Below are positions 45,236-64,000 of a stretch of 64,000 bases of DNA, in pieces. Within the stretch, counting starts at the first letter, position 1. Each line of letters opens with the position of its first letter. The translations under genes and the position numbers were made by a program. The notes beneath the pieces were generated by a model. That model had not been told where the DNA came from. It saw only the letters and a program-made list of their open reading frames with translations, and ran no database searches. The DNA lies in contig LUGG01000009.1 of the NCBI GenBank assembly GCA_001683735.1, forward strand, positions 1,736,001-1,800,000. Reading direction: 5' to 3'. This stretch comes from Grifola frondosa. Lineage: Eukaryota; Basidiomycota; Agaricomycetes; Polyporales; Grifolaceae.

Positions 45236-48200
45236 TCAGACGCGTCTATTCCTCCATCGACAGCAAACCGTATTGGTCGGCAACAGCGCCCAGCGCACCT
45301 TCGGGACCCGACGCGCTCGACGCGCCAGCTGTGCCCGACGAGCCACCCGGCGCACCGCTAGACCCCGACGGTCCAGCGCCGCCATCCTTCGGATCGTCCT
45401 TCGGCGGTGCAGGCGCTCGGTCAGCGGGCCTTTGCCTTTGGCCTTACTATGCCCGCCAGCCTTCTTCTTCTTCGGCTTGCCAGCAGTGCGCTCGTCACGC
45501 TCTTCTTGTTCATCCTCTTCCCCCATCAACCGCGGCCTCTTGGCGACAGCAGCAGCCTCTGCCTTCTCCGCCTGCCTCTTGGCATAGAAATCTTGTCGCC
45601 GACCGACCTGCATGGCATTTTGCCATAAGAGGTTGTCGACCGCGCGGCGCTGCGCAGGGGTAAACTCCGGAGCGCGCTCCTCTTCACGAGGCGGGAGGAG
45701 GTAAGATTCGACGACAGGCTCACCGAAGACGCGCGTCTCGCCGGTGGTCACGACGACTTGACAAAACTTGTATGGGCAGTGCGGATCGGAATTCCAGAGA
45801 GCCATGAAGGTGTCGTAGCCGCCCGGAATAACATCGCGGTCACGGCTGTAGGGACGAGAGCGCAGGAGCCGATCGAACTCGACGTAGAGGCGGACCTGGG
45901 GCACAAGGAAGAGGTGGCGGTCATGGAGGACATTATCGGTGAGGATAATATCTTGGTTACGGTTCCGGGCCAAATTGACGTTGTTTGCCATCAGTGATAG
46001 AATGAAGCAGTCGGGATTGAAGAAAGGAAAGCCTAGCAGTGATGGTTCAAGATCCCGAGGGTCAAGCAGAGTAGTCGGAGGGGGATTAGGAAGGTGTAGA
46101 ATAGGACTAGTGTTTTGCGGTAAAGTATCTGGGGCGAAAACTCGTCGAGTAGGAGTTCTCCGCCCCACGCGCTCTTTTAAGGACTTGCGGCGCGCAGTCT
46201 CGACGTCCGACCGGAACTCGAGACCTCCCAAGAACACCTGGGGATCGTTCGGCACGTTTCCGTTTCCTTCACCGAGCGCAGAAATTTGATCTACCCCGTT
46301 TGCTTCTAGATACGCCTTTAGAGCATCGAGGTGCTCAACGGAGGCATACGGGACCCATGTACGGTCGCCCGACTTCCAGACGGCCTCGAAGACAGCGCTC
46401 TCGCGCGCTCCACGGTGCGAGACTATTTTATCGATCGCCCACTCACCGTCTCGATCTTCTAGCTCGGCTACCTGGCTATCCAACCGCCCCGGGAATAGGC
46501 GATCATCGTTGGGCTCGTGCACGCGGAGCAAGGACGAGTGGAATATGTCATGTATCCCACGTCGTCTGAGATTGCTTGGTAAGTCAAGCCGATAGGAGTT
46601 GTTACTGAAGTCCCTAACAATTTTGTAGGGTCCGATAAATTTTGGAGCCAGCTTGCGAGCAAGCCCCTTCGGTAATGATATGTTTTTAGTCGAGATATAC
46701 ACAAGGTCGCCTTCGACGAACGGCGCGGGCCTACGGCGTCGATTAGCGCCACGAGTTTGCTTTACTCGGGCAGCTAGGATACTATCGTGCGCGGCCATGA
46801 CCGCATTCTTGACGCGCTGCGCGTACGCACGAACACCGGGGTATTCGTTCTTCGAAGCATCCTCCCAGACCATAGTTCGAGGCATGCGGCCGGTGTTGAG
46901 AAAGAAAGGTGCGAAACCTGTTGTGTCCGAGCATGCAATATTGATTGCGAACTCGATAGCGGGCAATTTCGATACCCAATCCTTCTGAGTGGCCCCGACA
47001 CACTGACGCAGCATCTGTGTTACAGTGCGGTTTGCGCGCTCGGTGGACCCGTCCGATTCAGGGTGATATGCGCTGGACATGCGTAGTTCAATACCCATTA
47101 ATTTATGAAGGTGCGTCCAAAACAGACTTGTGAATAGAACATCTCGGTCGCTTACAATGGCATGCGGGAGTCCGTGATGTTTATAGACTTCTGCAAATAT
47201 TAGTTCGGCAACTTCTCGAGCAGTGTAGGTGGTCCGACTAGGTACTAGGTGAACCATGCCTGAGAGTAAGTCAATTATCACAGTTATTGAATCATAACTG
47301 CCGTCTCGGTTTTTAGACTCGGGCATTGGTCCAACGAAGTCAATGCCGATGGCTTCCCACGGAGAGCCCGGAACAGGCAATGGATTAAGGAGTCCATACG
47401 GTTTCTGATTAGAAGGTTTGCTCCGCTTGCATGTCATGCAAGTTTCACAGTACTTCTGAGTGTCTTTTGCCATAGACTTCCACCAGACCTGGTCCCGGAG
47501 TAGTCCCAAGGTCTTGTAGGTTCCTAGGTGAGCCAGCAGAGAGTGAGCATGCAAGATAACCACCTCTCGGATGCTTCGGCCACCTTCCAGGATGTCAGGT
47601 ATGCATAGAAGCTCATGCTTCTTTTCCTTGATGTACACTAATCCATCTGTCACCCGAAAGTTCTTGAACTCTTTCGGGCTGTCTAGTATCTGCTTGAAGA
47701 ACTTGTCCTCAATGTACCGGTCCTGCAAGACAGTCAACAAGTCTATTTCCTTCAGCACTTTCAGTCAGATGGGCCAGAAAGTGGCTTCCGAGACGAGGCG
47801 CTTCCGGGAAAGGTGAGTCTGGTGCTTCCGTTTGCACGCCCTCCGTCTGTTGCTCACCATCTTGTACGTTAGCCGGCAAGGCTTCGGACACGGACGGAGG
47901 TGGCGCGCTAGCGTCTACATCACTCAAAGGTGAATTATCCTGTGACGGAGTGTCTGTTATTGACTGTGTTGGGTTCAAAGGTGAATTATCCTGTGACGGA
48001 GTGTCTGTTATTGACTGTGTTGGGTTTATAGTGGTACCCTCGCCCTCCTGTCGTTCCACACCTTTCAGTCCGGCATTTCTGTTGGTAACAGTCAGCCGGT
48101 CACCGGCTTTTTCTGTTACCACAGACGAACCAGCCCGGCCCGGTATTCTCAATTTCTCCGTATTATCAGCCCGGCCGGCATTCTGTAACCACAGTCCGGC

Positions 48201-48275
48201 CGAGTTTCTGAGCACATGTCTTGCGGCCAATGAATTGTGCCGTCGGTGAACATCAAATGCGGGAATCACACCCAC
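45236..48275 (-). mobile_element. 5'-truncated Ty3/gypsy chromovirus polyprotein
   Basis: The minus strand encodes the 3' half of a fungal chromodomain Ty3/gypsy element. The integrase has its zinc-binding HHCC region (HAHSLLAHLGTYKTL then CETCMTCKRSKPS) and the DDE core (GIDFVGPMPES, HAIVSDRDVLFTS, SAYHPESDGSTERANRT). A GPY/F module (KFIGPYKIVRDF) and a chromodomain (WAIDKIVSHRGARESAVFEA, then ASVEHLDALKAYLEANG) follow, then a basic tail. The upstream segment 47763-48275 (spacer with a tandem duplication) is joined through a frame break near 47762. Protease, reverse transcriptase and RNase H are absent upstream, so the copy cannot transpose by itself. It ends where the CCG-biased KDZ block begins. 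Confidence 0.85.
47924..48025 (-). repeat. 51-bp tandem duplication
   Basis: Two exact copies (47924-47974 and 47975-48025) encoding the 17-residue unit NPTQSITDTPSQDNSPL twice in the retroelement spacer frame. Confidence 0.9.
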
Positions 48276-48587
48276 GTATACCTACCGGCATAGTAAAGCA
48301 AATAAAAAGGTTATTGTTGTCCAGTGACCAGATGAAACGGCAATTCCAATAGGTGCGGCATTTGAGCTCCAAATGCCGCCCCGGTATTATCTCTCGGTAT
48401 CACATCTGTAATTCATACCACGTCTGGTAACGGCATTTCCAATCTGGGCTTTTCACATTTCCACACAAACTGCCATCGCAAATACCATTATCGGCCTGAA
48501 TGTCACAGATAAACATGACATCTATTGAAGACTACTATTACATAATCAGTAAACAGGGGCGTTTCTTGACTATCTCTGCGCGTTGAG

Positions 48588-48686
48588 TTAACCGCTTGGT
48601 GTCCGCATCCAATGCACCGTACGGTACCGATGCCAAGATATTGCGGTGTTCTATCGGTTGGGCATATGAAACAACAAACAACAATG
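48588..48686 (+). repeat. diverged direct repeat, copy A
   Basis: Shares with copy B (48936-49043) in the same order: TAACCGCT.GGT, CAATG.ACCGTACGGTA, TGCC, TGTTCTATCGGT or TGTTCAATCGGT, and ATGAAACAACAAACAA. The spacing between copies is about 348 bases. Confidence 0.7.
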
Positions 48687-48935
48687 TTTAGTTTATGCCA
48701 TCAGCAGTGTATGTGAATGTTTGATAAGAGAAGCACACCTGTTCATGATTATATTATGAGCATAGCAATTGACGACTTTCGATAACGGCATTGTGAATGC
48801 GGCCTTTGAGATTTGACGTGACCGGTATAATTACCGGAGCAAATAACATTGCCGGTTGGAACATCCCTGAGGTAAACATCAAATGTATTGAACTATTACC
48901 GAAGCGGTAAACGTGAGCTGTCCGACTTTTTGTCC

Positions 48936-49043
48936 TTAACCGCTCGGTATCGATATTCAATGAACCGTACGGTATGTATGCCGTTATGTTGTGGTGTTCA
49001 ATCGGTCATTTGAGGATTCCAAAATGAAACAACAAACAAACAA
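48936..49043 (+). repeat. diverged direct repeat, copy B
   Basis: Partner of 48588-48686; same word order with scattered substitutions and small indels. Confidence 0.7.
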
Positions 49044-49117
49044 TATCCATTGATACAACTGCAGCGCGATACATCGGTAATCGTACACCCGCAAAATCCT
49101 ACATCCCTCAACTACCT

Positions 49118-49967
49118 TCAACGAGGGCCACGATTGCCGGTCGGTGACTCCCGCCTCACTGCCGGGATGCTCGACCAATTTGCGCATGAACGCCGTGGGT
49201 GTGGAGGGGAGTGCCGCGGAGGGGGGGTCGAAGAAAAGGCGGATGAACCGCCAGAGTGATTGCCGACGGCACTCGGTGTGGTCGGCTGCACGGCACGCGG
49301 TGTGCCAGGTGCCATGTTGGCGATCAGGCTGGAGGACGGCCCCGGCGTGCCGCTTCGTGATGTCGTAGAATGGCCTTCTTCCTCAAGTTCTCCGACTGGG
49401 GAGGACCTGCCCGGCGAGCCGGGTGGAGTGCGGCGCCCAGGGCGAGGGGTGAACGGCCTTTGCGCGGCGCGGATGCCGGGGAGGGAGTGGACAGGGAATG
49501 TGAAGACGTCCGCTACGTCCGGTGAAGTCTGCAAATCAATGTTCAAATGGATTTACCGCCGGTAAACGACGACTCACCTGCATGACCCGCGTGAATGCGA
49601 CCGCGGTCACAAAAGCAATGTATGTGTCGAACGGCGCGGTAAGGTGCGGCGGAATCTGCCCATCCGCGGTAATGGAGGCGGCGACCTCACGCATTGCCGA
49701 GGAGCGCTTGAGCATGTCAACCGCGGTGTTCATCACGTCAGACTCCATCTTATTGGCCTTGAGCTGCTCTTCGGCAGTCGGCAGGTCTAGAAACCACTCG
49801 GCATATGGACCGTGCCTAGAAAAACCATTAGCGAACATATTGCCGACGGTACACACTCACGGCATATGCAGGAGGGGCCGCATGCGAAGTGTTGCCAGCG
49901 CGGCAAAAATGTGAGCGTTGACGTGAAAATCGCGGGGGTCACAGTTGAAGTGGGTGGGAGATTCCAT
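49118..49967 (-). CDS. 251-aa orphan protein beside the KDZ transposase
   Basis: Exons 49967..49861, 49815..49578 and 49528..49118 on the minus strand; phases fit exactly and no lesion is needed. Starts MESPTHFNCDPRDFHVN, followed by IFAALATLRMRPLLHMPRHG and PYAEWFLDLPTAEEQLKANK, a helical middle (MESDVMNTAVDMLKRSSAMR, PHLTAPFDTYIAFVTAVAFT), and a Pro/Ser/Arg-rich disordered C-terminus (TPRPGRRTPPGSPGRSSP). I do not recognise the family. It lies downstream of the KDZ gene on the same strand, inside the CCG-rich block, so it is a candidate passenger gene. Confidence 0.65.
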
Positions 49968-50596
49968 GGTAAAGATGCTGGTTGGATCGATCTGGTGTCA
50001 GGTCTATTTAACTGAAGCGACATAATATTTGGGAGGCATTTTCAAACTGTATAGAATTCTAAGATGAAGAGGTCTCCAGGGTCCGTGTGACCAGGTACAA
50101 TGGGGCAGATTTGAATAGATGAATGCTAATCTGCAGATAATCATATCGGTAATGATACTGGACAATATATCCCTGCCACGTGGTCAGATTTACTGAGATC
50201 ATACAGGATTGTAAAAATAGTATCTAAGCGGATTATCGCAACAGGGACGATGGTGCGATATATTAGGTTCATAATGTGTCACACAAGCTTTACCGGCATG
50301 CCCGAGAACTGTCAGCAGAACCAGAAGAAGTCACCGACAGAATATACCGTGAACTAAAGAACCATGTCATTGAATATACCGCACATGTGCGGGACCATCC
50401 AGATTACCGAGGACCGTGTGGTTTCCTGGTCATGAGTTGTTATCTGTCTGATATTTGAGAAGACCTCCTCACTTCTCTTCTAAGAAGACAAGAAATTGCA
50501 AATTATGGAAGCATCCCGAAGCTGTCAAGTGCCGTTCAGTCCATCAACGTACACATGATCCTTGACTATTTATATACTACCAGATAGAATCCCCAC
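49968..50596. other. spacer between orphan gene and KDZ 3' end
   Basis: A plus-strand frame 50276..50458 (YRHARELSAEPEEVTD) is open and shares the local word bias but has no ATG; it may be a gene remnant. Otherwise nothing seen. Confidence 0.4.
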
Positions 50597-53500
50597 CTAA
50601 GAAACCCGCGAGGCATTGAGATCACCGAAGGTTGCCGCTGCGGTATCTGCAAACGATTTCCACATTCCTGCTTGTTTTGCCGCATAACACCGATGACCGG
50701 CATTCAAAGCTTTACCGGCCCTGGTTTTCCATATCTCTTGATATCGTCGGAAATATCGGATGGTCCAATCCATTTCACACCTCACAATAACAAGCTCCTC
50801 CCTCCACCGATCGGCACGTGCTTTCGCTCGAAGCCAGTTGACGCGGTGAACTGTTTATCGTTAAAAACAATACTGACAAATGCCTGATCACTCACATTCC
50901 CTCATCCATGCAACACCGTTGCTATCGCCGGCCAAGTCGAGTGTCCAGAACCACGGCAATGGTTTATTCCTCAAGCCCCGGGTGTGTGCCTCAACGAGTG
51001 CCGTACCGACTTTCAAATCCTCCGGTGACAATACTTTGTACCGCGAGAGAATGAGTTGCCGAGCGTCGTGCCGCTCGGCATTCGGTATATCGGGATCAGA
51101 AGGATATAATGATAGAAGGGACCGGCGGGCATGGTGATATATACGGGATTGCACGGTGACCTCATTTTGAACGATGTGAACCTCATCGAATGACCGAAGT
51201 TTTGTCCGCTGACTTGTTGCTTCACGTACACGTGTCCTAAACAAGAATGATTTATATCCCAGCGATAATCGAATCCTGTGAAGGGCATCGTTCATTTGAC
51301 CCTTTCGAAGTTCGGTTTCATGATCGGCAACATGTTCCAGATGAAGTCGCCGAGAGGTATTCCACCCGATCATCGATGGCATATGTAACAGCTGTTTCTC
51401 CGGCGGCACATCGTCGCGGAGTTCGACCACTTCATCGATCCCGGTATTGGTACCGTCTTGAATATCGTACCATCCGGCATTCGTGTCCAATATTACCGAA
51501 TCATCCCCGATATCAGATTCAGATTCACCGTCGGTGGCGTCCGGTGAACTGACCATGTGCACTGCGGCACGTCTCTGGAAATTATCGATGCGGGTCTGAA
51601 GTCTTTGCCGGCGATCCAGGATTTGTAATTTCTCAGCAGCCGTCGGATTTCTACCCATATGCCGGATCTCCGCCGCTAGCAATAACCTATGGCAAATCAG
51701 ATGGAAATCATATATTACCGAACGGCAACTTACTGGCTCTCTTGAATCCGTATGCCGGAGGAAAGCCAAGCCACAGTTCCACGAGGAAGACCTTTCATCT
51801 CCTCAGTCTTTGCAAGTTCAAGCTGAATTTCACTTCGCGTCGGTGCTGAGGAAATGTGAATGTATTGCAGTGGCGTTTCAGGTGATGACTGACCTTCTCG
51901 CTTCTTGACTTCAAAAATGTCCATGACTTCAACATCGCGATGCCGTTCGGTCATCGCCCGGTGATACTGTGCAGTCCACTCGGTCACATCATCGGCATCG
52001 GCATTTTCGACGGCAGCGTCGAAACTCTCTCGGTGAAGCTTTTCTCCGGTGACAGCCTTTCGGTATTTCCGAACTAGTGTCGGTACTGATAGATTTTTGA
52101 GTGGTGTATGTGGAAAATATTAGGAGTGAAATTGCTTACTCATCCTAGTAAGCTTCTTCCAGTTGGAGTCATTCATGTGGTCATCTATTACTTCTTTCCT
52201 GTGTGCCGTGGACATTCCGCGAGTACTACCGGAAATGTGATTTAGCGGAGCCCACAAGGTTTCGATAATTTCACCGTCGATTTGCCCGGCACCTTCGATA
52301 AAATTCGGCGAATATCTGGCAAAGCATTGGTCTTGATGTCCGTGCACATGGAAAAGGCCGATGCCTTGGAGAATCGTAAGACCGAGCGGCATTGTGAGGT
52401 ATGGGTTCCCGGCGAATCGCTCCCTCATCCGTTTGCCATATTGACACATGATGTCATACAACAGTAATAACAGGGTTATACCGCAAAGTGTTGCCAGAGC
52501 ACCGTTAAAGACGTAGTCCATGTTTTTTTGCCTGTATCCCGTGAATATCCTGCGGTGTTGACAGGTACCGAGAACACTCACCGTTCACCCTTTTGAAAGT
52601 CGACGACAGAATGCGGAACAAAACAACCATGCCGGGCACAGGCGGCCGCTCCAATACCGGTGGCCTCAAGATTGTGCCGGTTTGCATTAGCTTGATTCAC
52701 CGCAGCATGATCGTTACATGTTGACCGCTAATGACCGAAGATGCAATTACCGGGGTGCTCATAAGAATGCCGAAGATAACTGACCTCTCTGGATTCCTTT
52801 GCGACTTTCAAATGGTTTTTGTAGTCCCGGTCCTGCACCATGAATCCTTCACCATCCCGCAATTTCACATCATCGTCCGGATTCCTCATTTTCATGTGCT
52901 CTGCGGTGAAGTTCCCATCCATGACAAAACTCCGGGTATATTTCCATCTGTGGTTGTTAGAATTACCACCAGCGATGCAATCTTATAGAACACACACCGG
53001 TCAGTTTCATCAGTTTCCCAGTCCCTCGGTAGATTTACCCCCGGTTGGGGGCATGCGGCACAGAAAAGACCATGACTGCCTGGTCCTTTCACACTCTCTG
53101 ACTCATGGGCTTCCCCGCTCCATTTGGCATTTTTCAGCTCTCTCCATTGTCGGCTCACCCTTAACAGCTCACGATACCGATCCTTTGCGGGGAATAAATA
53201 CATTGCCTTCCGGTATATCATATAACTCACCGGAACAGCATGAGGAAATGCCGGTGATGTCACCCGGCGAAGCTTGTTATAGTAATTCAATGCCGCGGTC
53301 TTGCATTCCTTGTTTTCCAGAAGAAAATCGTCCAGAACCCGGAACGTGAATGCCGTGCGGGGATATTTGGCACTGGCCGGATATAATCCGAGATCGAGTA
53401 ATTGGATGTCTGGCTGCACGGCATTTGGACAACCGCACCAGTGTGCCTCAAGGTGGTGGATGCCGTTGATATCCACTACAACCAAAGTCCGGGTGGTTGG

Positions 53501-54188
53501 GTTGACCGTCGGCATAATATTCGGCATTGTGTCCATGCTGTCTTCACCTTCCCCGGCATCTGAATCTGATTCACCGTCAACGGTACTCTCACTCGGGCAA
53601 GCTAAGCCACCGTGACCGAGGTACAGCTCCACCCCGGTAGACCGAAGTGAGCCAGGCCGAAAGTATTCGCCGGTCCAAGATTCCACACGGTGAAATGGTA
53701 GTCCAGAATGTTTTACCCTCGTGCAATCCAGACATGTGACCGGAAATCCAAGGCATTCAAGACATCTCCATGTACCCTCCCTCACTTTGCATCCGGCACA
53801 TTGAAGTCCACCTTCGGGATGCTCCAAGTCGACGATGCGGTGCAAGAATTCGGCCTTTCGTGGTAGCCATTCCCGCATGAAGTCATTTTGGCTCTACAAT
53901 CCTCCGGTAATTACTCATATCATTTACCGAAGCTTTTCTCACGGCACTCACTTTTGTCTTTCGTCCCTTTTTCCCGCAGGCTGCATCGAGGTTATCGTTG
54001 ATATCCCAATATTCTTCACGTTCTTCAGGTACTTGTTCACTATTACCGCGGTCTCGTACCGGTGCGGCCGTCACCGGGCTTTCTGTGTGGTTTACCTTGA
54101 TCCGTTTGCCGGAGATGTCAGATTCACCGTGTCGTATACCGCTCTTTGATATCACATTCCGCCGGGGAATTATGTTTTTTTTTGACAT
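50597..54188 (-). CDS. KDZ transposase with CxC2 cysteine cluster
   Basis: Eight exons: 54188..53952, 53893..52998, 52947..52785, 52727..52582, 52531..52140, 52085..51734, 51686..50896 and 50850..50597 (minus). All phases agree: 3,231 nt, 1,076 aa, no stop or frameshift. The CxC2 cluster (C-x2-C-x8-C-x2-C-x6-C-x2-C then His) lies near residue 100, followed by HWCGCPNAVQPDIQLLDLGL and RTAFTFRVLDDF. The Kyakuja-Dileera-Zisupton transposase domain shows WKYTRSFVMDGNFTAEHMKM, ATGIGAAACARHGCFVPHSV, LLYDIMCQYGKRMRERF, FIEGAGQIDGEIIETLWAPL and KEVIDDHMNDSNWKKL, then a long helical C-terminus (VNWLRAKARADRWREEL). It should cut and join DNA in the nucleus. Complete, so potentially active. The TET/JBP gene is 80 bases upstream on the same strand. 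Confidence 0.93.
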
Positions 54189-54268
54189 GGTGCGGCTGGT
54201 TGGTAGGGGTAATTCAGTGTGGGGATCAGATTTATATACCAATAGACACGTGTTGAATGAATATGTAA

Positions 54269-55621
54269 CTACTCCGTACAATGTATGTAATATTCCATGC
54301 TCATCCAATGAGGATACTGGACTCCGGCACGACCAAGGACATCAACAGACATGAAGCATGCATAACATAACCTTTCTCCATCCACTGCCTTGACCCCATG
54401 ACGAACGACCTTACCGCACAATCCCACCACCGATCCGGGATTATACGTTGCCGAAACTCCCTCGTCGGCAATTCCAATACCGCATGTTCGTACCGCCCCA
54501 AGGTTACGAGAAGGTCCATCCACGGTGCTCTGCCAGATGTATCGCGGTGAAGCGGTGTTTCCCGGTTAGAGATGACCTGAATTGCGGTAAATGTTGATGC
54601 CCATAGGTCAATCGCCGGCTTTAGACTCGGATCACCGGACATATGCCGCAGGGATCGAATGCCTGCATTGTACAAATCTGGTTGCATAACCCGCAATATG
54701 CCGCTGAGAACGGCGTCAGATTCTCCAGACAACTCCAACCAATGCATGCATTCAGGGTGTTTTTGCAAGGAAGCCGAGGTTTCCGGCATGTATGGTGGGG
54801 TCTTAATTTCATAAGTTCCATATATCTTTTACAATCTTATCAAACTCACCTTATGTCCCATTTGAAACCAGGCTGCGGACATCGTAATAATTCCCGGAGG
54901 GAACCAGTGACAATTCTCGGGTTTCCTATATAAATCCCGGTTCTCTCGCCATGACGTTGCCTTCCCGCCCGGTATCTTTATGACATCTTTCATTTGCCCG
55001 ATCGAGTTTTCCATGGCTTTCTGTGATGTTAGGTGAGATCCCAGTAATTAATACCGAAAGTCGTCAATGATACACGCACCTGTCGAATGCCGGATAGAAT
55101 GCCGGGGAGTATCCAGCACAATATCCGCAGGTGCTTGTCGACTATCACCGCCGGGCTGCTAACATGAGATGACGGAATGCCGGGAGGAAACCTGGTATTC
55201 ATTTTGTTCTCCAACTTTTCGCTTCGGCCCGTCGGTTTTGTCCCGATTCCATCGGCATATTGATCTGCGTCCCATTCTACCGAGACTTCCCGTAGATTTG
55301 TGAGTGCCGTATAGAATTGCCGCAGGATTACCGAGACTTACTAGGGTTTTTGTAGGCTTGTACCAGACCATGTGCCAAACCCATGCACTCATATACCATG
55401 TCCACACTCAGCATGATATTTGGAAGGGGCCTGGACATGGTAATGGGTTTTGTTGGGCTCCTAGTATTCACATGCAATGTATATTTGAACAGCTCTAGAA
55501 GATACAGAGACAATGCCTCTGTATATTCCAGATTGTATGCTTGCAAATACTAAACCAAACAGAGGGTTTGGTTGCTGAACTGTTTATTGTAAAACCTGCT
55601 TACCTTTCTATTGGAATCCAT
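54269..55621 (-). CDS. TET/JBP-family 2-oxoglutarate/Fe(II) dioxygenase
   Basis: Exons 55621..55604, 55549..55342, 55276..55080, 55020..54850 and 54801..54269 (minus), about 375 aa. TET/JBP enzymes oxidise 5-methylpyrimidines in DNA (5mC to 5hmC and beyond). Family segments: AVIVDKHLRILCWILPGIL, FPPGIITMSAAWFQMGHK, ISNRETPLHRDTSGRAPWMD, LLVTLGRYEHAVLELP, YNPGSVVGLCGKVVRHGV and DGERLCYACFM. Iron ligands are HxD (HRD, 54541-54549) and the distal His (54398-54400); the 2-oxoglutarate Arg is at 54371-54373. One frame break lies between LELP and DEGVSATYNPG, at 54466 (one G short in CCGAC); all catalytic residues are present across the two frames. The start in the 18-base first exon is tentative; 55822 is the alternative. 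JBP-like size, no CXXC domain. Confidence 0.85.
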
Positions 55622-56077
55622 ATTGTCAGAATTGATGAGGGAATCAAGTGAAGCAATTTGAATGCAAGAAGTGACTAAAGCAGGAAGATGAACATGCATG
55701 ATTGATGTTGTGATGTAGTTAAAAAAACACTGCATGGACAAACATAGATATACTGCTGTACACGAAACTGTGGCTGAATGTAATACCGAAAATGGAGCAA
55801 CATGGTGGTCATATTGGTACACTGATGAGTGATGTTTCCCCAGTGTAAATTAACTGTGACATTTTAAAAGTGTTATCAAATTACAGGTTACCTATGTACT
55901 ACATCACGGCAAGGTGAATGAATAATGTAGAATATGACAGAGGGAGAAGAATGCTGCAGAAAAGGTGATTCAGAGACATGTGTTGAATGACCTTGATCAA
56001 ACTTCAAAAGATCTCGTTGCCATTGGTGGAGATTCGATCAAGGTCGGAATTTAAATTTCACATTCAAATCTCGTATC
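55622..56077. promoter_or_regulatory. AT-rich, CpG-poor divergent region between TET/JBP and the HMG-like gene
   Basis: The two genes point away from each other here. The stretch is visibly poorer in CpG and in CCG words than the DNA on either side. A shared promoter region is plausible; no specific site recognised. A minus-strand frame from 55822 could extend the TET/JBP N-terminus. Confidence 0.4.
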
Positions 56078-58772
56078 ATGAGTAAGCCAGCAATCCAAAC
56101 AAAGAATCAACTTTCCCTCCTTCATCCTTCTACAATGCCCTCCAACATGGTGTTTACTGAGGCTGAGCTTCTGAAGCTGCAAAATGCTGCTGAGGAGCAT
56201 TTGACAGGATTGAAATCTGACAGAAGGACACTTAGGAAAAGACTGGCAGCTGAATTCTGTCAATCTCGGGGTGAAAGTGACAAAGGTTTCGAACAAAAAA
56301 TATTGCAGGTGTGTATTGTTCGATTGCTTCGGTAATAGGGTCTCACACCGACATAGGAAATCTGGACATGGTATTCGAAACGGGAGAAAACCCGCCGTCA
56401 TAAAAAACCGAAACCTGTGGACGGGCATTACCTGCTCAGAAAGTGGACGGCATATAGAGTGTGGCGAGCGGAACATGCCCGGGAGATTATCGAGAGAGCA
56501 AAAGAAATTAGCGGCGCGGAACCAGGAGCCGATCGCCGATTCATCCAGGCATATCAACCGGCAGCAAGTGAACTTTGGAACAAAATCGGCAAGAAGGAAC
56601 AAAAGGAATACGAACGAACCGCAGATAAGTGGAATGCCACCGGACCGCCGACGACCGTCCAGCAAATGTAAGTGACCGAATATCAGCATTACCGAGGATA
56701 CTAATGCCGAACAGTATCGCCGACGAACAACTTACCGAGATGTGCGCTAAGTTTGCCCGCATGGTAAAACTGCAAACAAATGCCAACGTTTTTATCTTAA
56801 CGGGACATCAAGATTCCGGCGGCGATATGGTGGTAATCAGGTATGGTATTTGTTCCTAAATGTCATGACATTAGCTTCATCCCAGCATAGACATGACTTC
56901 AACGACCGATACAGTCAGCTACATCAAAAATTTACCACCGCCTGTCCGAAATGGGCCACTGAGACATATGCCTCCTGGGTAAAATTTACCAGGAAGTGCT
57001 TCAGTGAGCAATTAGTTCCTACGGTTAAAATGGTATTTACCACGGTGAACATAGATACCGACGGTGATAACGAAAGTTCCGACGATGAGGAATACCTGCG
57101 GCCATTAACGGTGAAGCCGAAGCTTTTACCGTATCCTTTCAAACGGGATCATAGCGGCATTCCTGTCATTCCCGCTTCGGTAGAACTGAATCTGCTTGCA
57201 CTACAAAATTTCATCCGGACATTCCTCACGATGCATTGGAGTGTGTTCAAATTTCTGTCTTCAATAAGAGGTGCTGACACGTGGCGGTATTTCAGATCTT
57301 GCATGCGGCAATATGACCGGCCGATTACCTTGGGATCGCCTGAATAAGGAAGGATTCCACCGATATATTGTGCCTGGATCGGTACCGGAAGGAATGGTGT
57401 TCTGTGACCCTTCCAAAATCAAGAAGGAACAAGCCGAACAACTGTTACGATACTGGCAAGACCGACAGAAGAATCCTGATCAAGAGGTTTTCAGGTTCAG
57501 TCACGGTATTGTGAATGCCGAGCGGTGTGCAGCGATATATGCCGTTGTGGAAGACAGCGATGCCGATGCGGATGATGAGCATTCCCCTAGATATGCCGAG
57601 GTATCGAAGAAGTCGAAGTCGAGGAAGGCAAGAAAGAAAGGTAAAGGAAAAGCCAGGGCAGTTACCGGGACTGACGGTGAGGACGATGGACCGATGGACA
57701 ATAATTTGGACCGATATGAAGACCGCGGGAATAGGGATCCAAACAACCCCGCGATTCCTGACTGGGACTTGAGAGCGGCAAAAGACCAGCCACCGTCTTG
57801 GGCCGGTGATGTGTATCGGAAACGTCGGATATTCCTTGCATCTTTGTCACAGGAGGCATTTTACCAGACCTTGATCAAGGTCATCCTGGAAAGACCGGTA
57901 TGTCATATGTACCGCATATATGTACCGTAGCTAATGCCACCCAGGGAATGTTGAACTTGAAACTGCGGGATGCCCCTGGCAATTTCTGGGCCAACTGGAA
58001 ATATGACCAGTCATGGCTTCCTGAGGATTTTCATCGGCATTCGAACCGACTGACGCGGTCATCGAGTTTTGGAAAGAGGAGATTGTCGACTACAGGAGCG
58101 GCACAAAGACCGTCGATGTGGATGAAATCGTTCAAGCGGCATTGGTGTTCGGTCTCATACTACGGGACCTGCACCGCGCACAATTCTCGTTCAGTGATCC
58201 CGAAGATGCAGTTGCCGCACCCATCCCGACATACATCTCCACCTCGCCGCATTCATTCGAGCAGATTACCGAAATCTCAACTCTTTGCGGTGATCTTGTC
58301 AGGATTTATGTGGAACGTCAAGACCTTGATGAGGCATCGCTCATGCTCCCAATACAGCCCGGCATGAATCATTACAGATTCCAGCTTCACCCATCCAATC
58401 CACATCAAAAAATCAATTGATATCCTATGTACATATCCCGGTGTATGTTCCGTCGATATCGACAGGACCTCGGCAAACGAACGGTACACACCGGTGGCCA
58501 CGACGAATGCCATTGATAACATTGACGATGTACCGCCGGTGATTGGATGGGATGCTGAATTATCACCGCAAGTCACCGCACGTCGAATTACCTCCAATGA
58601 GATTACCTTGAAGGCTCAGGAGATATCGAAGGTGAAAGAGAGGTATCCAGCTTCACAGGGTGCGGAAGACCAGAATACATCTGGAACTCGCAAGCGGAAG
58701 AAATCGTCGGAGCTGGTCACTCCGGCAAAGAGGTCGCGGCGTAGTGAACCCACTGGTGCAGCACGCGGATAA
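56078..58772 (+). CDS. HMG-box-like protein of an agaricomycete-expanded family
   Basis: Exons 56078..56308, 56357..56667, 56715..56840, 56891..57240, 57296..57897, then 57945 onwards. Phases agree up to exon 6. Exon 2 encodes an HMG-box-like helical segment: KKPKPVDGHYLLRKWTAYRV, FIQAYQPAASELWNKIGKKE, QKEYERTADKWNATGPP. Later parts: LTEMCAKFARMVKLQTNANV, NMTGRLPWDRLNKEGFHRYI, FCDPSKIKKEQAEQLLRYWQ, a Lys/Arg-rich KKSKSRKARKKGKGKAR, then FEPTDAVIEFWKEEIVDY, and a C-terminus with RKRKKSSELVTPAKRSRRS. The frame breaks at the T4 run 58028-58031 (T5 fits) and again near 58400-58430. I recognise the domain order from a multicopy agaricomycete family of unknown function; DNA binding is inferred from the HMG-like part. 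Divergent from TET/JBP. Confidence 0.65.
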
Positions 58773-59004
58773 CCCGCAGTGTTGCCCGGCAGAGTCAACC
58801 GATGACACGTAGTATGGCGGCAAAGAGGAATGCCGCGGTGACATCCCGTCAAGGCAATGTACACATGCCGAACAAGCGGAGATAAAGGGCTGCGGTGACT
58901 GGTATTTGTAAACACCGCAGGTTCTTATATAAATGGTGAATGCATATTTGGTATATACAACTTTGAAACGTTTTGAAAGTACACGAGGTAAAGGTAAAGC
59001 ATAT

Positions 59005-60637
59005 TTACGATGACGATGACCGAGCGGCATCTGTTCCCGGCGACGGATATCTCGGCGGCTGCACCTCCCATTCCTTCAGAGCCTTTTCGTACCTGTGCCG
59101 CCTGCGGACTATCTTTGGCCAGGAAATGAGCTGAGTTTCCAGCTCAGGCTTTGCCGCGAGTAAACCTTGAACGCTGTCCATGCAAAGGCCCGCGGCTCTC
59201 GTGTGAACCATTTCCCGCAGGTCACTCAACTCCTGCCGCCAACTATTTACCCTCAGCGTCTCCTCCCTATCCACTGCAACATCTCCGCCCGGTATTGAAG
59301 AAGGTCGCCCTGCGACATTTGCGTCCTTCACCTCCGAGTGGATGCACCACATCGGCAATGTCTCCGGCATCCATCCCTCCACAGCCTCAGGCATGTCACC
59401 GCGAAAATGCGCTAACATTGCACCCGGTGCGGCTCGAGGAACCGCGGTTGTGGACGTACCAGCGGTAAATGTCGAGCGGGTCCGTATCTGCATCGGAGAG
59501 GGTGCTCGGCTCATTGTACGGCGTTTCGATTGCCCAAGTCATCGGACGTTGCACAGTCGGCACGGTGCTTGACTGTTGCGGCATATCCTGCATGAGAGGT
59601 TGCAGGAGAGCCGTGGCTCCATGACCGGTGCGCTCTGTGTTTACCAATGATGGCAGATGGGAGACGACTGGGACAGATGGTGGGAAGACTGCTTGCGGCA
59701 GTGGGAGCTGCCCCCATTGCAGCGGCGGCAATGCGTTGCCTGCAGTATCGCCGGTGGCCAGCGGTACCGTGGACGGTGCACGGGATTGAGTGCGAGGGAC
59801 TTCAACATTGGCTTCAGGAGGCTGGCTCATGGGAGTTCCCCATTGGTGGGGAGAGGTGGTGCGCCAATCTGGTCAACATCTCCTGCAGGTGCAGGAGAGT
59901 TGAATTGCACAGGGGAATCGGGACGAATGTCGGGCGATTCGATAAGCCATGTGTTTTGTTTGCCGACTGGGGAGTGTGCCGGTGTGTTACCGGGTGACGG
60001 TGTCTCGAGATTGAATGACCGAACAGGTGCCGTGGTGTGGATCGTTGCCGGGGTATTACCGCGGGATGGAGTTTCAAGGGCAAAGGTCAGGACTGGTTGA
60101 AGACCGTGAATAGGTTCCGGGGTGTTGCCGCGTGACGGTGTCTCCAGATTGAATGACCGAATGCCTTGCATTGGGTCGATGTTTGCCGGAGTGTTGCTGC
60201 GCGATGGTGTCTCGATGGCAAAGGACATGAGTGGTCGAGGGGCATGCATCACGGGCGGGGTGTTGCCGCGAGATGGTGTTTCCAGATTGAACGACCGAGG
60301 TGCATCGACGGTATTCTCGTTTGCCGGACTGTTACCGGGACGGCGTTTCGAGTTGGAAGGACCTGGTGACGTGGGCCGGGTTCTGTATTGCCATTGCGTT
60401 CAGGCGGGACGGTACAGAATGACTATCTACGGTGATCTCGCTAGGCTGTGCCGGAGTCCACTCCATGGCGTCCGACTGGTCTACGTCCATTGGGAGATCT
60501 GTAAACAAATGGTCAGTATACCCATGAGATACGCAAACGTTTGCCGATGTATACTTCGATAAAGCTGCGATACAACAAATAACATAATTGAGGAATTATC
60601 GAAAGCGGCATTTATGAAGAGAATATTTACCGGACAT
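59005..60637 (-). CDS. repeat protein with ETPSRGNTP units
   Basis: Minus strand. The start ATG at 60635..60637 lies in a 7-base first exon (ATGTCCG, donor GTAAAT) spliced to 60498, giving MSDLPMDVDQSDAMEWTPAQ. Then six or more copies of a 20-25 residue unit, core SFNLETPSRGNTP, vary in the linker (PPVMHAPR, ANIDPMQG, EPIHGLQ, ATIHTTAP). Degenerate units follow (TWLIESPDIRPDSP, TWAIETPYNEPS). The C-terminal part is globular-looking and Arg-rich (SWRQELSDLREMVHTRAAGL, SWPKIVRRRHRYEKALKEWE). Frame breaks: GGG at 60337-60339 (GGGG fits) and the junction near 59440-59510, where an intron phase could not be fixed. No family recognised; SP/TP-rich units suggest phosphorylation. Part of the accessory block. 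Confidence 0.6.
59990..60375 (-). repeat. coding tandem repeat, unit about 60-75 bp
   Basis: Six recognisable units starting near 60365, 60300, 60230, 60160, 60090 and 60015 (minus strand), each encoding a variant of SFNLETPSRGNTP plus a variable linker. Confidence 0.75.
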
Positions 60638-60943
60638 TTTGCGACGGGTTTCTGCGGCTATTGGAACGTAAATACCTCAGTTGCGATTTTACAGAGAAGA
60701 GACGACTTGCCTGATGGGTGAGAGGAGGGGGCAAAATTTGAACTTGTTCGGTGGGAGTTTTATGTACCTTCCGACGGAATTTTACGTCAACATGTGATCT
60801 AGATTGATGGGCTAGGGCAAAGAAGTGATCACGTGATCGCTAACCGGCAGTCCTCAAATACCTCTCTCTCAGGCTCTCAGGCCAGTCTGCTTCCTCATTC
60901 CCCCAAGTCCCTCACCTCACTATACCGTTAATCAACTCCCCGC
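60638..60943. promoter_or_regulatory. 305-bp divergent intergenic region
   Basis: Between the divergent repeat-protein gene and the Cys-cluster gene. The right half has a CT-rich leader (CTCTCTCTCAGGCTCTCAGG) before the ATG at 60944. No TATA box recognised. Confidence 0.4.
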
Positions 60944-63441
60944 ATGGCTGCTCCTACTCTGTCTGAAGCGGATGTCCAGCTTGCTCTCACGGCACTCGAC
61001 GTCACCGCGGCACGGCTCTGCGGTGAATATCGATCACCGTCCCGACGTCACTGCCGCCGGCAACGAGGTATTCGTCGCTACTTGGTGGAATCAAGTGGTG
61101 AGCACAATGCATTGCCATTAGTGTGAATTGTCTCATCGGCTCCCAGCAAAGTCTTTATCAGGATGCGGTGAAACTTCGGCGATCCAACAACGTTCTGTGG
61201 TCCTTCCCGCGGATTCTTCTCAGTGCCGTTGCCGAGGGTGGAGATGCCGAGGCGAAGCGTGCTCAGCCAAACATGGACAATCTCCGCAAGGATGACCGCG
61301 GCTGGATCAATACCGCAAGTGGAATAAGGTTGCGAGGGACGATCCGCCGGTAATACATGAGCCAGGTATGCTTCAAGCTTTTTACATGAATTACCTAACC
61401 GGTACATGAAGCGATTACTGTGCCTACACCCGTGCCGACGGTTCCCAAGGATGTTCCTGTGCGCCGGTTACCGCTGACGATCTTGTGCCGCCGGTGTCCA
61501 CAGATGTTCCGGTCTCTACCACAAAGGTTAAGCCTGAAACACTGCCAGAAGTGACCGAGGAAGATAAGCATGCCGCTGCGGCACCCATCGTGGATGTGCC
61601 GATGAGTGGTGTTGTCGCTGAAGCAGGTTTGTATTTATCTATATTTATTTGACTATTGTTACATAAGCTGAGATACCGCTTTACATTTATAGCTGCCAGG
61701 AGTGAAGCATTGAAAACCTTGCGGTTCAAGAAAACGCCGAAGGCGGGCGGTGCAAATGCCGGTGAAAGTACTGGTGTGTACGCGCAATATCCAAGTACCT
61801 GAACTAACATTCCCTCAGAGAAGCCGAAGCTGACATTGAAATTGCCCGCCAAACATGTCCTGGAGGAAACCGCGGAGGAAGAGGTTCAGGTTCAGATCAA
61901 GAAGCCGCGAACGACCGCGGTGAAGCGATCTACCGCCGGCAAACAGGCCACCGGCAAAGGCAAGGAGCCTGAAGATGTCGAGATGGCGATCGAGGATGAT
62001 GAGGACAGTGAGGACGACATGCAGCTGGACAGCGAGGACTTCGACGAGAGTCCGCCACCGAAAAGTATGCATGGTTATTTGGTTTCGATTCCTGCTGACC
62101 GGCATTCTTTGTTCATAGAGGCAAGCAAATCGTCGAAGAAAAAGCCGGCACCGAAGTCGGTCGAAATCATCGAGGAAGACGACGACGCACCGCAGGCACC
62201 CACAGGTCCCAAGACCGGCGATGACACTGTCGAGAGTGTCGAGGAAGAAGAAGATGCCGACGATGACACCGGCCACAAATATACCCCGGAGGACATTTAC
62301 CCGCGGTACGTAGATATAACTGTATTTGCCGCTGCGGTACGCTAACGAGTATCTGTAGGAGAAGACTTGCACGAAATGCCGCAAGGAGGAAAAGGTGGTT
62401 TATTCTCCTGAATACACACGCGACCGCATGCATTGGGTGCCGTGTGGTAAAGCAGGCGTGCAGCCTCACGCCGCGGCCCGACACCGATAATGGCCTCAGC
62501 GCCAAAGACGTTCAATACCTCATGTTTCGCAAAGCCAAGGTGAAGCGCGAGGCGGAGGGCAGATCGCTGCCTAAGCGAGACCTCAAGTTCGAGCTCGGTC
62601 TCCTCACCGAGTTCCAGCGTACCCAGGACCTTGCGAGAAAGCTGCGGGAAAGCAAGGCAGCCCAAGTCGCACCGAAGCCGCCACGAGGTGCCGGTCGCAG
62701 GTCCCGCAAGACCAAGGCCGTGCGGGTTAACACCGGTAAATCGATCGATTTACCTTATTCACCGCGCTCCATTTTTTAGCTTTTGTTCTTATAGGTCACA
62801 CTAAGCCAGACTCAACCGCCGCAGCGACCGGTGATGAATCATCGGCTGCGGTAAAGATTGATCGCGTCACCGGTAAGCAGACCGCAGTCGCACCTCCGCG
62901 GATGCGCTTCGGTCTTCTCGACGCAGATACCGATGTCGACACCCCCACAGGTAGCGAGTCGAATACCGTCGGCACCATGGTCCTCGCTGGCGATTCCCGC
63001 AAAGAGCTGGTGAGAGATGTCGCACGGGAGGCCATGGCATTTTTTGTGGAGGAGTTCAAGGACGTTTTGGCCATGCCGAAGGCGATGCAAGTGATGCAAG
63101 CGATGCACGAGGACCTTAGCGGCCAGTTGGCCCCACTGCGCACCATTCCCGCAGACCTTGAGAAGGTCAGCCAGGGTCAAACGGTCCTTCAAGACTTTTC
63201 GCAGGTGAACAAAGAGATTACCGATATCAAACTCGGTAATCTCGAGACCAGCACCGCATCGTTGGCCGCGGTGACGGAAACGCTACGCCTTGAGCTCCAT
63301 GCACTGAAATTGGCGAAGACTTCGAATACCGTGGAGGATACCGCAGGGATGCCGCAGGCTGTCGTTGAAAAGCCGGGGGAGAGTTCAGGATCTGGACCGC
63401 AGGCAAAGCCGGGGGTTTCTGGTGAAGTGGCAAAGGACTGA
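60944..63441 (+). CDS. Cys-cluster protein with acidic middle and C-terminal coiled coil
   Basis: ATG at 60944 (MAAPTLSEADVQLALTALDV), stop at 63441. Later exons: QYRKWNKVARDDPPVIHEP, EVTEEDKHAAAAPIVDVPMS, KLTLKLPAKHVLEETAEEEV, a very acidic stretch (MAIEDDEDSEDDMQLDSEDF, ESVEEEEDADDDTGHKYTPE), a Cys cluster (TCTKCRKEEK, then CIGCRVVKQACSL), a basic segment (RGAGRRSRKTKAVRV), and a helical C-terminus (VREAMAFFVEEF-like, then KVSQGQTVLQDFSQVNKEIT). The C-x2-C / C-x2-C-x6-C arrangement suggests a zinc-binding module and the charge pattern a nuclear protein; both are inference. At least three frame breaks occur (near 61300, 61465 and 62385). I recognise similar Cys-cluster plus coiled-coil proteins from agaricomycete genomes but no assigned function. 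Confidence 0.58.
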
Positions 63442-63776
63442 TTCTCCAGCTAGTCACACGTGTCGCGGTTTTTGTCTTTGTACGATAGTCGATGTTCGGT
63501 ATATTCGTTTGTCTTGGCTTATGCAATTTGCTTCGGTTATTGGTACCGTCGGTCATACTGCTATGGTAATCATGGTACCGCTGGCCATACTGCTACGGTA
63601 ATCATGTGTGCTTGGTAACTATGTTCTTTTGTAAATGACTTATTGTTTTCCTGACTATTGTTTATCGGAGTTTCAACCTTATTAACCGCAGCTTTTTAAG
63701 TCCAGGTTTTTATCACTACAAAATAGATCATTTTCTTCATTGAAGTATTCCTAATTACCTATCATCCTCTTACACA
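63442..63776. other. intergenic with a 32-bp tandem duplication
   Basis: 3' flank of the Cys-cluster gene and promoter side of the next gene. Otherwise AT-rich. Confidence 0.5.
63542..63605 (+). repeat. 32-bp tandem duplication
   Basis: Two copies (63542-63573, 63574-63605) starting GGTACCG and ending GGTAATCAT, with four mismatches. Confidence 0.85.
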
Positions 63777-64000
63777 ATGTCTACCACAGAAGACCAGTCT
63801 CAAAAATCGAAGGAACTTTATTTCCGTTGTGCCGCTACGGAAATGCAAATTCGGGAATGGCGCATCTGGCATGCGATGAAAGTCTATCCTCAAGATCCCG
63901 ACGAGCTCACGCACCTTCGGTGGTCTCAAGGCCTGCAAAATGAGATGGTAACGGTATTTGCCTATGGTATATCGCGGTGAATGTTCTCATCATGCTGCAG
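63777..64000 (+). CDS. 5' end of a hypothetical gene, cut by the window edge
   Basis: ATG at 63777 after a pyrimidine-rich leader. Reads MSTTEDQSQKSKELYFRCAA, TEMQIREWRIWHAMKVYPQD, PDELTHLRWSQGLQNEM, then a possible donor GTAACG at about 63951; the frame otherwise stops at 63980. No domain visible in this short piece. It shares the CCG/CGG word bias of the accessory block. Confidence 0.4.

Follow-up and report, generated by a model that had tools for sequence, protein, structure and literature searches.

The stretch of DNA considered here (the window) comprises 64,000 nucleotides of the basidiomycete Grifola frondosa (GenBank assembly GCA_001683735.1, contig LUGG01000009.1, here C8, positions 1,736,001 to 1,800,000). 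It harbors a DNA transposon that carries genes for a KDZ transposase and a TET/JBP-type dioxygenase and that is painted over its entire length with a short CpG-containing motif, CGGYR. A first-pass annotation, made from the letters alone, had placed the two genes side by side on one strand, 80 bases apart, and both the Pfam matches and the gene models obtained here agree with it (Table 1). One transposase exon matches the KDZ profile (PF18758, E=3.5e-31, 109 bits against a cut-off of 26.6), another the CxC2 cysteine cluster (PF18803, E=1.9e-25, 89.5 bits against a cut-off of 27), and the TET exon at 54301-54828 matches Tet_JBP (PF12851, E=2.5e-12). The TET gene lies upstream of the KDZ gene on the minus strand, the gap covering 54189-54268. 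The splice model of the transposase was made in this analysis and avoids stop codons by design.

The catalytic residues that the annotation had reported for the dioxygenase do not share a single frame in the window copy. The HxD motif stands in the frame of 54301-54828, whereas the distal iron-binding His of the window copy falls into another frame: near 54461 this copy differs by one base from each of four sibling copies (L012-L015), which could be a sequencing error. The siblings match Tet_JBP up to profile position 162 with no stop, compared with position 119 in the window copy; one of them (L014) shows another gap, of one base, near 54330 and beyond the distal His. A model built with the sibling letters aligns to CcTET of Coprinopsis cinerea (7vpn, 7w5p, 8jkk) with E=5e-42 and contains equivalents of H326, D328, G331 and D337, residues whose roles are given in the available passages of PMC12730594. 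The features of AG-type TET/JBP proteins (HxD, the distal His and the G331/S and D337 equivalents) are thus all found in the sibling-based model, and the element TET is predicted by homology to be a CcTET-like dioxygenase. The likeness concerns the catalytic core, unlike the N-terminal half, which is weakly similar (17.9 bits). A protein search of a large collection returned no match to the TET or to gene 3 (see below); this collection probably holds few fungal proteins, so that the null result is uninformative about relatives.

Borders and copies of the element

The annotation had further suggested that the dioxygenase travels with a mobile element. This is borne out by shared borders at 48057 and 64856, which enclose the TET gene, and by a 7-base duplication flanking the copy on contig C2. 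With window 48001-50700 as query, four other copies start at query position 53-57, and copies stop at 856-857 of the sequence L051. Left ends, 98-100% identical, occur on C8, C64, C14, C2 and C13, together with a partial 85% relative on C13, and right ends on C8, C2, C64, C14, C27 and C13. These borders come from shorter DNA queries; a 20-kb query missed most of the near-identical copies and was not used. The element, a DNA transposon of the TET-positive Kyakuja type, is present in the genome as five near-identical insertions and is about three times larger than the stretch to which the annotation had pointed.

The left and right ends show an imperfect inverted similarity over ~120-170 bases, with TTCAGTC in common, and the terminal 80-150 bases recur genome-wide at 70-88% identity, where placeable at the ends of other families. 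The right flank on C8 starts with CTTTGGT, which also stands immediately to the left of the C2 copy; the right flank of that copy is near-identical to that of C8 (not compared letter by letter), so that a 7-base duplication flanks the C2 copy. The right terminus followed by GTCGTTC, the duplication left of the window insertion, occurs in one place with no mismatch (C64:2358-2381) and in two others with three mismatches. Both ends of C64 and the start of C27 fall at a point equal to window 62472. As left ends number five and right ends six, a misjoin in the C8 tail is the simplest explanation: the sequence past ~62.5 kb probably copies the C2 flank, and the window insertion really runs into C64. 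Ectopic recombination is a possible alternative. A perfect two-copy 51-base tandem repeat (window 47924-48026) ends 30 bases outside the left border.

TET-positive Kyakuja DNA transposons are a described kind (Kojima 2025, PMC12730594). In the available parts of that paper they share with the window element the KDZ transposase, the AG-type TET, a 7-base target-site duplication and the presence of several copies. Their termini are given there as 5'-CA..TG-3', whereas the window element has CA on the left and GGGCTC on the right, and no terminal inverted repeats are reported there, whereas the ends here are imperfectly inverted. The type is assigned from the target-site duplication and the TET type, one terminal feature being different.

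An element-wide CpG-containing motif

The motif CGGYR occurs at 380 sites in the 16.8 kb of the element, compared with 100.8 after dinucleotide shuffling (z=31), and three flank pieces of equal size give z values of 0.0, 0.2 and -0.2. Its three forms number 160 (CGGCA; 39.6 by dinucleotide expectation, 35 when scaled from the flank), 113 (CGGTA; 23.6 and 16.4) and 107 (CGGTG; 38 and 40.9). The fuller word CGGYRWW has 202 sites, or 12.0 per kb in the element versus 1.4 per kb in the flank. The tetramer CCGG likewise stands far in excess inside the element. The density steps up at the left border: bins of 500 bases hold 0-5 sites each from 40 kb up to it, and each of the next four, starting at 48001, holds 12-14; the 96 bins outside have a mean of 2.7 and a maximum of 8, and the 32 bins inside a mean of 11. 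The clearest gap, at 55.5-56.5 kb around the divergent promoter, holds two sites, and is explained by base composition, which predicts 0.5 there.

The sites are evenly divided between the strands (188 versus 192), neighboring sites have the same orientation in 180 cases and the opposite in 199, and the mean gap is 44 bases with a standard deviation of 50. Densities are similar in modeled exons, introns and intergenic sequence (23.3, 24.7 and 21.1 per kb). When synonymous codons were shuffled 1000 times, the KDZ exons, with 86 sites, exceeded both the expectation of 39.7 and the top shuffle of 59, as did gene 3 (45 sites; 21.8 expected, top 35), whereas gene F had 36 sites against 23.9 expected and a top shuffle of 38. 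Protein sequence and codon usage hence do not explain the motif, least surely for gene F, and codon bias as its cause is ruled out for the KDZ gene and gene 3. Simulations of order 2 and order 3 yielded 213 and 334 sites, high counts that arise because such models absorb the motif itself. The cluster CGGTA..CGGYA..CGGYA is not rare genome-wide, with 247 places and 533 for a reversed control; among 100 of these places listed, on contigs C1-C7, nine lie in the 16.8-kb C2 copy, where the average over the genome would give 0.1.

The element itself is a further member of the described kind. A literature search that included the text of Kojima 2025, supplements and most subscription papers lying outside it, returned no report of an element-wide motif. 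A term search of PMC12730594 gave no hit for 'CpG' or 'HMG'; 'motif' gave 11 hits, and none of the passages displayed concerns a DNA motif of this sort.

Association of KDZ and TET genes across the genome

Profile searches covered the genome of 39.06 Mb in 64 contigs, and the resulting counts are lower bounds. A further profile, PF20515, matched neither in the genome nor in the controls. Merging matches that lie on one strand within 3 kb of each other turned at least 128 KDZ exon matches into 77 loci, and 19 of at least 22 Tet_JBP matches lie inside KDZ elements. The annotation had proposed looking for TET genes at similar spacing upstream of other KDZ loci; a same-strand KDZ match indeed follows 767-1972 bases downstream of 17 of the 22 TET matches, where ~0.004 would be expected per TET. 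At C8:1402708 (L016) the adjoining KDZ sequence is cut short and the next KDZ match is 9.4 kb off, and at C13:926030 (L021) it is cut where an inverted segment starts. The region C13:900000-937000 (L041, L042, L035, L036) seemingly contains two tandem copies of the type of family C2c (see below), with an inverted segment between two shared breakpoints.

Three TET matches (C2:3334903, C6:1978575 and C2:3214961) have no KDZ match nearby. One TET gene of this kind (L020, C2:3333403-3336858) bears no painted word, is rich in GC at a normal CpG level and could be a TET of the host. Two others (L029 on C6 and L030 on C2), likewise lacking KDZ and a painted word, are 84% alike in the catalytic exon. 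Two 31-base tandem-repeat arrays lie near the TET at C6:1978575 (L050 1752-2847 and 4938-5721).

As observations that would count against its proposal, the annotation had named KDZ copies lacking the dioxygenase neighbor together with an empty site whose borders exclude the dioxygenase gene. Half of this was found: 60 of the 77 KDZ loci have no same-strand TET within 0-4 kb upstream. Eight of these 60, picked as the best KDZ matches, were read; five match the window KDZ protein at 27-34% identity over at most 96 amino acids, and three show no match at E<=1e-4. With such low or absent similarity, these eight loci look like other lineages.

CpG words in other KDZ families

By DNA and protein similarity, 19 of the 22 TET loci fall into eight KDZ families. 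For each family the best 6-mer was compared with the best 6-mer of shuffled sequence, which corrects for the choice of the word. The best word of the window family, CGGCAT, was reached by none of 89 shuffles, and CpG words clearly paint four other TET-positive families, some of these words overlapping and others distinct: TCCGGA in C2c (0/83 shuffles), CGGAGC in C8b (0/200), and CCGGCA in both C3 (0/200) and C12b (0/188). In C12b the word has a density of 10-17 per kb, which drops to 0-3 per kb at the terminus-like sequences near 582 and 590 kb.

Five of the six distinct TET-less KDZ loci are unpainted: L001, L002, L004, L005 and L007 yielded no word (13-106 of 200 shuffles), L003 and L006 having been left out as near-identical to L001 and L004. 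No word was found either in the three TET genes without KDZ (35-62 of 200 shuffles), in three window flank pieces (19, 7 and 37 of 89) or in stretches outside the C12b and C12a elements (40/200 and 15/166), and a control outside KDZ elements (C2:3335000-3344999) gave an AT-rich word (3/150). The words CAGGTC and ACAACC of C6b were rejected as painting, as they go with period-31 tandem arrays.

Judged by z values against a first-order expectation, the families use overlapping variants round a CGG core, from which C2c and C8b differ sharply. CGGTA is strong in the window family alone (18.4; at most 2.8 in the others), whereas CCGGAG and CGGAGC together reach 16.2 in C2c, 13.1 in C8b and 5.3 in C3 and are absent from the window family (0.8). 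CCGGCA is shared by C3 (14.6), C12b (14.4) and the window family (10.6), and TTCGGT with TCGGTG by C2d (10.9) and the window family (7.1).

Origin of the words and traces of methylation

The comparison of the window family with C2c bears on how such words arise. Only 10 of 122 window-type sites (8.2%) are unchanged in C2c, compared with 10.2% of CpG-containing and 14.3% of all 5-mers, and identity at window-motif columns is 57% versus 65% overall; in the other direction the effect is not seen, 11 of 64 C2c-type sites (17%) being kept in the window element. The differences at window-type sites, which are unpolarised, involve many substitution types and all positions of the 5-mer. Between families, the proportion of synonymous differences is 0.71-0.88 and that of nonsynonymous differences 0.17-0.35 in the pairs obtained, which means that synonymous sites are saturated or nearly so. 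Consequently, no ratio of nonsynonymous to synonymous rates is relied on; the proteins are conserved, and there has been enough time for word turnover. Repeated gain under selection or drive would, on these sequence comparisons, fit better than a single mutational bias.

Among the C2c sisters (five copies, two of them partial; ~20 kb aligned, 161 single-nucleotide polymorphisms), transitions affect 78 of 2394 CpG positions versus 38 of 17405 others, a 15-fold ratio that is somewhat inflated, since a polymorphism was counted as CpG by either allele and the denominator is consensus CpG. CpG transitions make up one of three polymorphisms among the window siblings, three of five in the C3 pair and one of 10 in the C6 trio. 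An excess of CpG transitions is the usual trace of 5-methylcytosine. The genome contains five DNA methyltransferase-domain matches at four places. In Laccaria and Coprinopsis, 5-hydroxymethylcytosine and 5-formylcytosine have been mapped in transposable elements, KDZ being unmentioned in the available parts of the source (PMC8889193). CpG outside the words has been lost in most TET-positive families and in the TET-less locus L008, mildly in the window family, whereas the five unpainted TET-less loci, pooled, retain it at host level. The counts inside and outside the words indicate that these are not merely CpGs that escaped decay.

Other genes and features of the element

Beyond the KDZ-TET pair, the element contains several further genes (Table 1). 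TET-carrying KDZ elements were reportedly described in 2014 by Iyer, together with an extra gene encoding a divergent HMG domain. Gene 3 may be such a protein: its candidate HMG box was recognized in a single-sequence structure model with a predicted local distance difference test score (pLDDT) of 66, and gave no sequence match. The end of its gene model is unsafe, because the frame, which is continuous in C2c, seems to shift near 58.04 kb. A stretch 34% identical to gene A lies downstream of the KDZ gene in C12b. Gene E includes stretches of 62 and 129 amino acids with relatives in C2c and C2d (35% and 29%). The gene F model has no relative among the loci compared, and the open frame that follows it has relatives in C2c (51%) and C2d (50%).

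Table 1. Features of the transposon and its surroundings, in window positions unless stated otherwise
Feature	Position	Strand	Remarks
Transposon	from 48057 to C8:1800856 (L051 position 856), 856 bases beyond the right edge		16,800 bases; 5'-CACACC...GGGCTC-3'
Target-site duplication GTCGTTC, left copy	48050-48056		right counterpart C64:2375-2381
Left terminal region	48057-48226		~120-170 bases; similar to the right terminus, inverted, and to the ends of other KDZ families
Dispersed motif CGGYR (CGGCA, CGGTA, CGGTG)	48057-64000, on to element end	both	~one per 44 bases
Gene A, left-arm open frames	49118-49856	-	no Pfam match; no usable gene model
KDZ (Kyakuja-type) transposase with CxC2 cysteine cluster	50597-54188	-	9-exon model, 1063 amino acids
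TET/JBP dioxygenase, predicted AG-type, CcTET-like	54269-55621	-	frameshifted in the window copy
Divergent promoter region TET/gene 3	55622-56077		
Gene 3, putative HMG-box-like protein	56078-58772	+	candidate box in exon 56357-56667
Gene E	59005-60490	-	no usable full model
138-base tandem repeat in gene E	59976-60298		
Gene F model	61602-63441	+	
Open frame, maybe a further gene F exon	63744-63977	+	continues past the window

A possible self-address and its alternatives

The first-pass annotation had also speculated that the enzyme might help the element to escape silencing or to mark its own target or ends, and the element-wide CpG motif is the finding that bears most on the idea of a marked target. 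A parallel is offered by VANDAL21 and its VANC21 protein in Arabidopsis (Hosaka 2017, PMC5735166), where, according to the available parts of that paper, each transposon family has a short, dense motif that differs in related families, DNA methylation is the opponent, and self-recognition has been proposed. VANC motifs are described there as mainly non-coding, in tandem repeats, in one orientation and without CpG, whereas the motif of the window element is dispersed, occurs in both orientations and in exons too, and always contains CpG. Unlike VANDAL21, the window element encodes a TET-type dioxygenase.

A VANC-like role of the motif, combined with an element-encoded eraser, leads to the proposal that the motif is a self-address concentrating TET on its own element, which as a whole is the best explanation found and is given a probability of roughly 0.4. 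A putative reader, most likely the candidate HMG-box protein or the cysteine-rich KDZ protein, or else TET itself, would bind clusters of the motif and might thereby concentrate TET on the DNA of the element. There TET would oxidize methylated CpG, so that its own family, but not the host, would be released from silencing. Motif-rich copies would have an advantage, and the motif could thus accumulate through point substitutions, synonymous positions of coding sequence included. An extension of this proposal, tentative and rather doubtful, is that each family writes its own CpG-centered word by point substitution and has it read by its own TET-guiding protein, so that words and readers would diversify and families would demethylate mainly themselves and close kin.

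Several results weigh against the self-address or its extension. The word of C2d is borderline (ACCGAA, 1/127 shuffles), and the C6 group (CAGCTG, 2/200) and C12a (ATTTAC, 1/200) show no clear CpG word. CGGYR is also enriched in C3, C12b and C2d (z of 10.6, 12.0 and 8.2), and the family words overlap to the extent that CGGTA and the C2c/C8b word alone separate cleanly. In the catalytic exon of TET, C8b has its nearest relative in the window family (72%, versus 63% to C2c), yet its word is that of C2c. C2c-type sites do not diverge faster than their surroundings (identity 67.5% versus 64.8% overall), and the candidate HMG-box reader comes from the structure model described above. In addition, the TET-less locus L008 has a CpG word, TTGCGA (2/200 shuffles), which implies that TET may not be required for a word, and motif CpGs are not spared in the C2c sisters (11/392 changed versus 67/2002 others, p=0.76). 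At L008 itself (C8:994398-997952), TTGCGA occurs 12 times versus 1.8 expected, CpG is reduced, and at E<=1e-4 its transposase does not match that of the window.

The CpG word of L008 and the lack of protection of motif CpGs favor the view that the motif consists of binding sites for the transposase or the HMG protein, serving transposition, compaction or expression and unrelated to TET. In plant elements, transposases are known to bind sites with a CG core. This explanation is considered possible, if unlikely, because the five clearly painted families are all TET-positive and L001, L002, L004, L005 and L007, few of the 60 TET-less loci, are unpainted, and because hundreds of sites running through exons exceed by far the needs of excision. 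Retention, in which other CpGs were lost to deamination of 5-methylcytosine and one context was protected by TET or repair, agrees with the strong depletion of non-motif CpG in C12b and C2d (TGN/CGN up to 9.7 in C12b), where CGG contexts persist. It is improbable, however, since the window-family motif stands above host density (CGGCA 160 versus 35, CGGTA 113 versus 16), motif CpGs and other CpGs mutate equally fast in the C2c sisters, and all positions of the 5-mer, not CpG alone, differ between families, the direction being unpolarised. That the motif is a foreign signature from donor genomes carrying such words, as its extent across gene boundaries might suggest, is very improbable, given that z=31 persists against shuffles that keep the dinucleotides of the element itself, and that the words of related families with syntenic genes differ within a single genome, most clearly between C2c and the window family.

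Significance

The proposed self-address bears on the questions of why transposons carry TET genes and how TET would act on the element and not on the whole genome. An element-wide CpG word bounded by the element ends is a concrete, testable answer, and it predicts pairs of readers and words. If the extension to family-specific words and readers is true, transposon TETs would be sequence-addressed erasers, not general ones. The element-wide word may also be a source of sequence-addressed demethylation tools.

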